Shown: piece after piece, positions 4,600 through 8,854 of the stretch
Numbering within the stretch: the first letter of the stretch is position 1
Layout: the number at the start of each line of letters is the position of its first letter
Source of the DNA: Chloroflexota bacterium
GTDB lineage: Bacteria; Chloroflexota; Dehalococcoidia; JACPEP01
Direction of reading: 5' to 3'
Length of the DNA: 64,000 nt
Assembly: GCA_016183425.1 (NCBI GenBank)
Contig: JACPEP010000037.1
Coordinates: forward strand, 1-64,000
Position numbers and translations under genes: made by a program
Notes under the pieces: model-generated
The model's input: only the letters and a program-made list of their open reading frames with translations
What the model was told of the DNA's origin: nothing
The model's database searches: none

Positions 4600-4838
4600 A
4601 ACTTTATCTTAGCCGACATCTAAATCCCAGTCAACGAGATCAAGAGTTGGGCTCTGCTGGCTGATGGAGGCAGCAAATAGGCGACCGGGCTTCCCATCTG
4701 CGGCTGCCCACCCGAGGGCAAATAATGCTAGCGCTAAGCTGTTCGCGTCTTCTCAAACAGGATAAAGACTGTCATTCTGAGCCCGAGCGTAGCGAGGCGA
4801 AGAATCTCGATTAGCACGCCTATTTACGCAACTTAGCA
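4600..4838. other. Short gap with an interspersed repeat
   Basis: No gene seen. Bases 4771-4809 hold a GTCATTCTGAGC...GAAGAATCTCG element of the same kind as one at about 6866-6902. Confidence 0.5.
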
Positions 4839-6638
4839 CTAGCCGTCCTCCCGGCCCGCCTTTCGCCAGACGTCGAAACCCTCAAGCTCCTGTGCCTCCG
4901 CCTCATCGGCAATGACCCTGGCCAAGGTTTGGAGCAATCCTGGGTACGGGTGTCCATCCTTAACACCCCGCTCCACATTGTCCTGGAGGTTCCAGCCGGG
5001 TGACCTGACCCCCGCTTCTATCATCTCCTTAATCCTGGCCAGGCTCTTGTTCCTGATGTCTTCGTCTCTATGGTGAGCGTAGCGATAGAAAAAACACTCA
5101 AGTAAGAGCGCCTGTTCATCTGGGCCAGCCAGGCTGAGAGCTTTGTCCAACATGCTGAGTCCTTTGTCATAGTCGCCCCTGGCGAGGAGGAGCCCGGCGT
5201 AATTGCCCAGTTTGATGGCGCTCCCGGGGTCGGCCTCTAGTGCCCGCTTGTAGTACCCCTCGGCCCCCTCATAGTCCTTGCGAATAGTCCAGAGGAAGAG
5301 GGCGTAATTGCCCAGGGCGGTGGCGTGCCCGGGGTCGGCCTCTATGGCCCGCCGGTAGTACCCCTCGGCCCCCTCATAGTCCTTGCGAATAGTCCAGAGG
5401 AAGTTGGCGTAATTGCCCAGGGCGGTGGCGTACCCGGGGTCGGCCTCCAGGGCCCGCTGGTAGTACCCCTCGGCCCCCCCATAGTCCTTGCGAACAGTCT
5501 TGAGGAAGCCGGCGTAAACCCCGAGCAAATCTGCGCTCTGAGGAAACTTCTTAAGCCCCTCCTGGTATATTTGGTCGGCCCTCTCCGGGTCCGTCTTCTC
5601 ATATCTGGACGCCTCCAGCCAGACCCCTATCCAGGAGGTGAACTCCCGGGCTGCCTGCTCCACAGCCTTCTCAAGAGTCCTCTTCTCTGCGCTTTCGGGC
5701 TTGGCGGCCACCTTGTCACTCAGGCTCTTGAAGGTTTCGGAGTAGGTCTTTTCCAACTTCTCGAAGCGCTTGAAGTCCGGGTGTTTCTCCAGCTCGAATT
5801 CATTCCGCACCAGGAGCATCAGCTCATCAAAGTCATGGTGCTGGACCCAGGTTGCGTGCCTGCTCTCCAGCCATCCGCCCATATCATTATTCGGGACGCT
5901 GCTGCTTACCCAATAAATCCCCAGGGGTAAAGAGTCTCTAGGCAGCTTATGGAGCATGGCAGCTATGCTGCGGTCGTTGCCGCCGTAGCCAATGAAGACC
6001 AGGCCCGTCTCCCTGAGCAGCCTTATGAGCACCTCTTCTACATCAGGGTCCAACACTCTGGTCTGCTCCGCTGTGCTCCGAGGCGCCAATAGCGCATCGC
6101 CATGTAGCTTTATCACCAGGGGACTCGTCCGGGTCAAGCGCACGAAGCCTATGAGAGACTCATGGAGAATCACCAGCGGTTTCTTGCTTGTGTAAAGATA
6201 AAGAGCGTCAGCCACCAGGTTATCGAAGTTGGTAGTCAGAACGAAGTTACAGTGCCTGCCGCACCGTTCGTGAGACATGATCTGGGCCAGGACACCGTAG
6301 CCGAAGCCAGGGTCTTTCTCCTCCACCAGTTTTTCGATTTCCCGTTGTTGTTCCTGTTCTGAATCGAATAGTTGTTTGAAGACGGGCGCGTAAGAGAGCG
6401 CCGCATTTTCGGGAGCATAGTCGGGAAATTCTTTCTTCACCCACTCATCAAGGTTGTCCTCTGATCTGGTTTTGAACATCTTGAGTCTGGGCAGCCAGCT
6501 CTTGACCAGTGTTCCGGCGGCGGGAATGCCGGAGGAGACGGAACAGCCGGCGCCCAGAAAGAAGGTGAACCGGCACTCAGGATCCTCCATCTTCCCCCTG
6601 AGCCGCATGACGAATTCGCTGGCTTGCATCTCTATCAT
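4839..6638 (-). CDS. SIR2-domain protein with C-terminal TPR repeats (possible defence gene)
   Basis: A 599-residue protein. Residues 20-275 form a SIR2_2-type domain: GAGCS (29-33), TTNFDN (135-140), KLHGD (177-181) with the likely catalytic His179, and GYGGND (217-222). Proteins of this group are NAD+ hydrolases in several phage-defence systems, killing or stalling the cell after sensing infection. Residues 345-510 are TPR repeats, three of them almost identical (386-420, 421-455, 456-489). The tail (520-599) is unknown. There is no partner gene on either side, so it would be a single-gene system. The upstream region is AT-rich. NADase chemistry is inferred from motifs; defence is inferred from architecture. 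Confidence 0.8.
   Translation of the reverse strand: MIEMQASEFVMRLRGKMEDPECRFTFFLGAGCSVSSGIPAAGTLVKSWLPRLKMFKTRSEDNLDEWVKKEFPDYAPENAALSYAPVFKQLFDSEQEQQREIEKLVEEKDPGFGYGVLAQIMSHERCGRHCNFVLTTNFDNLVADALYLYTSKKPLVILHESLIGFVRLTRTSPLVIKLHGDALLAPRSTAEQTRVLDPDVEEVLIRLLRETGLVFIGYGGNDRSIAAMLHKLPRDSLPLGIYWVSSSVPNNDMGGWLESRHATWVQHHDFDELMLLVRNEFELEKHPDFKRFEKLEKTYSETFKSLSDKVAAKPESAEKRTLEKAVEQAAREFTSWIGVWLEASRYEKTDPERADQIYQEGLKKFPQSADLLGVYAGFLKTVRKDYGGAEGYYQRALEADPGYATALGNYANFLWTIRKDYEGAEGYYRRAIEADPGHATALGNYALFLWTIRKDYEGAEGYYKRALEADPGSAIKLGNYAGLLLARGDYDKGLSMLDKALSLAGPDEQALLLECFFYRYAHHRDEDIRNKSLARIKEMIEAGVRSPGWNLQDNVERGVKDGHPYPGLLQTLARVIADEAEAQELEGFDVWRKAGREDG
5172..5483 (-). repeat. Three near-identical 105-base tandem repeats encoding TPR units
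   Basis: The repeats code for YxGAEGYYxRAxEADPGxATALGNY-type units of 35, 35 and 34 residues. Identity is high at DNA level, including stretches such as TCATAGTCCTTGCGAATAGT, which points to recent copying or gene conversion. Confidence 0.85.
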
Positions 6639-7048
6639 GACACGGCCCTCAACCTATCAGTAGCTGCTCGGAGGTATTCGGATGTAATGTGACTTACTCT
6701 TCATTCTTACAACACATTTATCGGATTTCTGAAAATCATTGACCTGTCTCATTATAACCATAATCATCAAAAAGCCTAGCTTTTTCTGGCTTTGTTTTTT
6801 GTTTTTTGCACAAACATATTAGAAATCAGGCTCTAGAGACTGGTGAATTTTGAAGCCTGCCATTCTGAGTAACCTGTCATTCTGAACGAAGTGAAGAATC
6901 TCAGAGCTTCCTCGTCCCCCACCCTTGGCGGGAGATTGCTCAGGAAAGGCCAAACCCGTTCCCGTTGACAGGCGTCCCAGCCCCAGACTATCATTGCTGA
7001 ACACAAAGTTTTTTGCCAGCTTGTAATAGAGTAAGGGGTTGCTGGAGT
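6639..7048. other. AT-rich gap with divergent signals and a repeat
   Basis: No gene seen. A TATAAT reads on the minus strand at 6756-6751 and could serve the SIR2 gene, but no good -35 is present. AAAAAGC-CTA-GCTTTTT (6770-6786) forms a small hairpin next to T runs. Bases 6859-6902 hold two pieces of the CATTCTGA...GAAGAATCTC repeat. The stretch 6680-6830 is clearly AT-richer than its surroundings. Confidence 0.45.
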
Positions 7049-8548: not shown

Positions 8549-8854
8549 ATGCGAATTCTGCACATTCTGCGTAACCTGGACGAGAAGCCTGTCCTGAGCA
8601 GAGCCGAAGGGCCTGTCCTGAGCAGAGCCGAAGGGCCTGTCCTGACCATCATCAGAGAACACCTGAAACAGGGCCACCAGGTCACCCTCCTCCTGTTGCA
8701 CGATGCCGTTCTGGGCAACTTCCCCGTGGAAACCAGCACCTTCGCATGCCTGGAGGATGTTCGCGCCCGAGGGGGAAAGACCAACCACCCCACCCTGGAC
8801 TACGATGACATCCTTCGCCTCATCTTCGATAACGAGCGGACTATCTCCTGGTAG
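8549..8854 (+). CDS. DsrH/TusB-like protein carrying an in-frame repeat
   Basis: A 101-residue protein. MRILHILRNLDEKP, then VLTIIREHLKQGHQVTLLLLHDAVL and the loop with a cysteine (TFACLEDVRARG) fit a DsrH/TusB-like third subunit. Residues 13-32 come from a 24-base tandem repeat (PVLSRAEG twice) that was inserted without breaking the frame. The repeat lies between the first beta strand and the following helix, where a loop is expected. Function is inferred from position after two DsrE-like genes and from the fold pattern; sequence similarity alone is weak. Confidence 0.6.
   Translation: MRILHILRNLDEKPVLSRAEGPVLSRAEGPVLTIIREHLKQGHQVTLLLLHDAVLGNFPVETSTFACLEDVRARGGKTNHPTLDYDDILRLIFDNERTISW
8587..8645 (+). 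repeat. 24-base tandem repeat inside the TusB-like gene
   Basis: Two exact 24-base units (8587-8610 and 8611-8634), each made of GCCTGTCCTGAGC and AGAGCCGAAGG, and eleven bases of a third (8635-8645). The motif belongs to the CCCTTCGGCTCTGCTCAG-like interspersed family also seen near 46620-46740. Confidence 0.85.

Follow-up and report, generated by a model that had tools for sequence, protein, structure and literature searches.

The locus considered here raises a simple question: is a gene that joins a SIR2 domain to TPR repeats a complete, one-protein defense against phages, and what would its unusually similar repeats be for? We examined the gene within its 64-kb window (the whole stretch of DNA analyzed, 64,000 nucleotides) and compared it with homologues from other genomes, plasmids, and viruses. 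On balance, we think it probable that the gene encodes a single-chain, stand-alone SIR2–TPR immune receptor that depletes NAD+. Computation establishes the architecture of the protein, its intact motifs, the uncoupling of effector from array, the diversification of the TPR groove, and the position of relatives as prophage cargo. The NADase activity, the trigger, and the growth arrest are predicted by analogy, being carried over from DSR2, SPARSA, and Avs5, and the defense role of the window gene is likewise inferred.

The initial annotation had described a full SIR2_2 motif set fused to TPRs, and this description proved correct (Table 1). The catalytic His is intact, GAGCS occupies residues 29–33, and GYGGND occupies residues 217–222. 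In the Pfam scan, SIR2_2 (PF13289) reaches 40.0 bits, well over its cut-off of 24.5, and several TPR families also exceed their thresholds. Within a 32-member alignment, KLHGD is almost invariant and TTNFD is invariant. The SIR2 domain is followed by helices (residues ~290–345), TPR hairpins (~351–503), and a C-terminal cap with the pattern W.L...I..A...GHP....L..LA.VI in the homologue alignments. The AlphaFold2 model, for which the 32-row alignment served as input, has a mean pLDDT of 91.9. The top solved structures retrieved with it by Foldseek are the SPARSA Sir2–APAZ protein and DSR2, with designed TPR and OGT solenoids next in rank.

Table 1. Positions in the window of the SIR2–TPR gene and its parts.
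Feature	Position	Strand	Residues	Remarks
SIR2–TPR gene	4839..6638	minus	599 aa	ATG start; real ORF
SIR2_2 (NADase-type) domain	5769..6638	minus	1–290	motifs, Pfam, and predicted fold
KLHGD motif	6096..6110	minus	177–181	predicted catalytic His179
TTNFDN motif	6219..6236	minus	135–140	NAD-site Asn137/Asp139
TPR unit 1	5418..5522	minus	373–407	35 aa
TPR unit 2	5313..5417	minus	408–442	
TPR unit 3	5208..5312	minus	443–477	
Conserved helical C-terminal cap	4851..5126	minus	~505–596	homologue alignments and predicted helices

Three of the TPR repeats had been singled out as nearly identical in DNA, and the measurements bear this out. Tandem Repeats Finder reports a 105-bp period with 3.1 copies, 89% matches, and a score of 506, the highest among the only three tandem arrays of the window. 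Pairwise DNA identities among the three 35-codon units (5208–5522) are 88, 83, and 89%. Since random in-frame segment pairs from the same gene average 28% identity and reach just 66% at the 99.9th percentile, the similarity of the units is far above chance. Each unit corresponds to the canonical 34-residue TPR plus one residue, located between helices A and B, and in the predicted structure the three are flanked by more divergent TPR-like helical hairpins.

The window gene is a member of a family of stand-alone SIR2–TPR genes with a patchy distribution over multiple phyla. Scans for close homologues with the single window sequence returned no match and an alignment query was needed; the alignment-guided search yielded 80 loci in genomes spread over many phyla, and in ~25 of these the homology extends along the full length. 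Among the 61 genomes searched of the window's class, the level at which the nearest genomes were compared, three hold a close relative. A tree of the SIR2 domain separates two deep groups, both fully supported. The catalytic motif is mostly H-G-D in the window's group and mostly H-R-D in the other, a deep clade that includes L056, L055, L030, and L010. Phyla are intermixed within both groups, which fits horizontal transfer, with paralogy and binning errors as further possible causes. In a few members (L049, L062-L064, L086) the catalytic His is replaced by Ser or Tyr; in L062-L064, a low-complexity linker of some 300 residues additionally separates SIR2 from the TPRs. Our literature search, which covered few subscription journals, found no paper or experiment on the SIR2–TPR family or on turnover of its sensor.

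An all-against-all comparison of neighboring ORFs across ~90 loci revealed no conserved operon partner, and the neighbor families that recur are generic regulators and transporters. The SIR2–TPR gene thus acts alone or with host components, in agreement with the single-gene organization first proposed for it. We also looked for homologues in conserved non-defense loci, an outcome that the initial annotation had named as speaking against its proposal; no such pattern emerged, the contexts being varied and no neighbor conserved. Weighing against defense, most chromosomal homologues lie outside recognizable defense islands.

Across the family, turnover of the TPR array contrasts with conservation of the enzyme and the C-terminal cap. 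The number of 35-residue units ranges from 1 to 12 per member, with 15 in one Porphyromonas member; other members have units of 34, 42, or 44 residues. Repeat number is polymorphic even between close relatives whose tandem repeats are near-identical: Porphyromonas loveana, P. gulae, and a third Porphyromonas species (G351) carry the gene at the same syntenic locus with 4, 10, and 15 units, respectively. The genes of P. gulae and G351 agree at 98.7% of nucleotides over the 392 codons that precede the array, with 387 of 392 residues the same; their arrays have one identical unit in common. One further homologue, L036 + L037 (G008:C131, C70), is apparently split, with both contigs ending in the TPR array, and repeat numbers are therefore undercounted in short-read assemblies.

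The differences between units fall on particular positions. When units were compared within 22 homogenized arrays, the changes clustered at canonical TPR positions 2, 3, 9, 12, 13, 33, and 34. The ligand-facing concave positions of TPRs were defined by Magliery and Regan as 2, 5, 9, 12, 13, 33, and 34 (PMC1261162); our list of groove positions was set before counting and later confirmed against that source. Codon counts gave a dN/dS of 0.88 at groove positions and 0.19 at other positions for all 22 arrays. In the 11 young arrays with little synonymous change, the values were 1.85 (bootstrap over arrays 1.35–2.60) and 0.31; restricting the set to arrays with so little synonymous change inflates the 1.85 and leaves the sixfold within-array contrast unaffected. 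SIR2 members with 34-residue units, mainly Bacillota, showed a weaker contrast (0.52 vs 0.22). The window's own three units vary at 4 of 7 groove positions and 6 of 28 others (Fisher P = 0.16), a trend that points the same way as the family's signal in numbers too small to stand alone.

As a control, we turned to non-SIR2 ORFs of the window's genome and class; eight near-identical TPR arrays found there gave pooled values of 1.40 at the groove vs 0.32 elsewhere. Near-identical TPR arrays thus tend toward groove diversification regardless of fusion partner, and we rejected the signature as evidence specific to defense. Being common to non-SIR2 arrays, it supports a recognition role for the TPR array that is particular neither to SIR2 nor to defense. 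The initial annotation had also suggested that repeat expansion could reflect changing recognition, and had proposed comparing repeat number among homologues; the family-wide turnover, together with the groove diversification, favors that suggestion.

The connection to phages comes from relatives. Two Vibrio-type prophages with backbones 93% identical hold a full-architecture SIR2–TPR gene in the same cargo slot, between a replication gene and the baseplate genes; the two copies are 82% identical in the SIR2 part and 37% in the sensor part. More distant cousins (SIR2 33–39% identical, with different C-termini) lie between the portal and gpA genes of P2-like prophages, and the gpA–gpQ interval of P2 phages is a validated defense hotspot (PMC9122126). 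Cousins also occupy lysogeny regions in viruses of three realms: a 186-like phage, a PM2-like virus, and a haloarchaeal pleolipovirus, whose sirtuin was noted previously (PMC9503650). By sequence, Foldseek, and PADLOC alike, the SIR2 domain of the window protein is closest to those of proven phage-defense NADases. Among the cousins, L161:5923-8517, L163, and L176 encode SIR2 proteins of ~870 aa with an unannotated helical C-terminus and sit between portal (gpQ) and gpA. A candidate rule that relatives always adjoin an integrase fitted three annotated viral records and was dropped after a simple, low-sensitivity integrase search found one at 1 of 38 viral loci.

A self/non-self or kin-recognition receptor would share much of this evidence. 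Its array would sense products of competing strains or of non-phage mobile elements, and its SIR2 domain would kill or arrest. In fungal NLRs the TPRs are near-identical, polymorphic in number, and under positive selection on their concave face (PMC4986451), the same evolutionary signature as found here, and plasmids of Methylobacterium, Rhizobium, and Photobacterium carry some SIR2–TPR members. Carriage by prophages and the location of cousins in the P2 defense hotspot, however, match anti-phage use better, and we regard kin recognition as unlikely.

A second alternative dispenses with invaders altogether: SIR2 would ADP-ribosylate or deacylate proteins chosen by the TPR solenoid, in cellular signaling or quality control. 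In its favor, TPR proteins serve as scaffolds in general, housekeeping genes surround the window gene, and the same genome has other near-identical TPR arrays, one without a recognized effector. A cellular function of this kind accords poorly, though, with occurrence in 3 of 61 class genomes, with phyla mixed on the tree and context not conserved, with turnover of the array in syntenic orthologues, and with a SIR2 domain nearest to defense SIR2 domains. We give this possibility a low probability, as we do kin recognition, and retain the NAD+-depleting immune receptor as the better account.

By the tested criteria, the window gene is not SPARSA, Avs5, Thoeris, or Sir2–HerA. A PADLOC search had been proposed as a check on the defense assignment; the SIR2 half matched described families, but no described system spans the whole protein. 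The best PADLOC models are Argonaute-associated (short-Argonaute) SIR2 proteins (1.5e-35, residues 23–279). SPARSA (PDB 8in8, 8jl0, 8y80) provides the closest SIR2 both by sequence (E 2e-11) and by fold, with the motifs GAG.S, TTNFD, HGD, and GY.G.D in common. These matches could mean that the SIR2 effector belongs to a guide-dependent or multi-gene system and that its partner, such as a short Argonaute, is encoded elsewhere. However, the profile match stops at about residue 280, where a TPR array and helical cap replace APAZ; no short pAgo adjoins the window gene, and neither an Argonaute nor any other conserved neighbor appeared in the ~90 loci. We consider such a missing partner very improbable.

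DSR1 and DSR2 resemble the window protein in being single chains with an N-terminal SIR2 domain and a C-terminal helical repeat sensor, and DSR2 is activated by phage tail tube protein. The window protein is shorter, however, and has canonical TPRs in near-identical units. DSR2 aligns with its model at a Foldseek E of 1e-7 with partial superposition (TM ~0.3), and PADLOC gave no match to the DSR family. The candidate single-gene system PDC-S65 of PADLOC has a homologous SIR2 half (2e-18), but the match covers only residues 4–277 of 599 and the sensor half is not in common. In Avs5, a SIR2–STAND–repeat protein, SIR2 is the effector and C-terminal TPR/Sel1-type repeats form the sensor (PMC12931631); the window protein has this pairing without a STAND NTPase in between, as the Pfam scan detected no NTPase family. 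Unlike Thoeris ThsA, it shows no SLOG family in the Pfam scan, and its PADLOC match to ThsA is weak and confined to SIR2. Unlike in Sir2–HerA, no HerA ATPase lies beside the gene, whose neighbors are PaaX, holin-like, and GATase genes. TPR partners are marked on the published tree of the SIR2_2/SIRim class (PMC12700824), which includes human FAM118; the window protein is a SIR2_2 member, and its likeness to these proteins holds at the class level only.

Replication slippage or gene conversion alone, without selection, is already disfavored and scarcely credible as an explanation of the repeats: tandem DNA repeats do amplify spontaneously and near-identical arrays are common in the window's genome, but a neutral process would not place replacements on six or seven groove positions while the convex positions stay fixed.

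For the immune receptor that we favor, the most likely mechanism is the following. The concave groove of the TPR solenoid would bind a protein of the invader, or a component of the host that infection has changed. Binding would alter how the N-terminal SIR2 domain is assembled, and this domain would then hydrolyze NAD+ and halt the cell before the invader multiplies. Specificity may change as the 105-bp TPR unit is duplicated, lost, and recombined and selection then acts on groove residues, with the effector and the C-terminal cap remaining fixed as the array evolves.

More tentatively, and with rather less confidence than in the receptor itself, the family might be a widespread bacterial equivalent of the NLR-type receptors of fungi and plants, lacking any NTPase: a single polypeptide with a fixed SIR2 executioner and a TPR array that rewrites its specificity through turnover of tandem units and selection directed at the groove, shared among bacteria, plasmids, and prophages. 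In contrast to fungal NLRs, the window protein is bacterial, has a SIR2 effector, and lacks a NOD/NTPase. If this proposal is true, the fungal mode of concerted evolution plus groove selection would extend to an NTPase-free bacterial receptor. Sensor evolution could be read straight from DNA, with the repeat as a 105-bp cassette and the effector constant, and exchanging arrays between the near-identical 10- and 15-unit orthologues would make target acquisition testable.

The surroundings of the window gene comprise a PaaX-family regulator, a small membrane protein of the Phage_holin_4_2 family, a glutamine amidotransferase, a DsrE protein, and a JAB protein; apart from a weak match to the last, PADLOC found no defense match among the neighbors. 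The GC content (0.58) and GC3 (0.73) of the gene fall inside the neighbors' range, and the idea of an inserted foreign island was abandoned as unsupported. Given housekeeping neighbors and neighbor-like GC, the window itself offers no context argument for defense. A HicB-like antitoxin ORF lies at 1049-1273 on the minus strand. Short interspersed repeats (GTCATTCTGAAC..GAAGAATCT) flank the SIR2–TPR gene at 6876-6901 and ~4775-4815. A perfect 24-bp tandem repeat (2.5 copies, 8587-8645) lies in frame within a small ORF (8549-8854), encodes PVLSRAEG repeats, and resembles an interspersed element inserted into a coding region.

Elsewhere in the same genome are two more near-identical TPR arrays, L002 (G000:C47:102938-106228, ORF 775-2106) and L003, whose groove positions diversify like those of the SIR2 gene; one of the two proteins has an N-terminal hydrophobic segment and no recognized effector domain. 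A further locus, L004 (G000:C3:28105-29937, ORF 244-1833), encodes a membrane/coiled-coil protein that combines a weak nSTAND3-type NTPase with TPRs in 102-bp units that are 99% identical. Its contig terminates within the array, and L004 may be a second repeat receptor cut by assembly.
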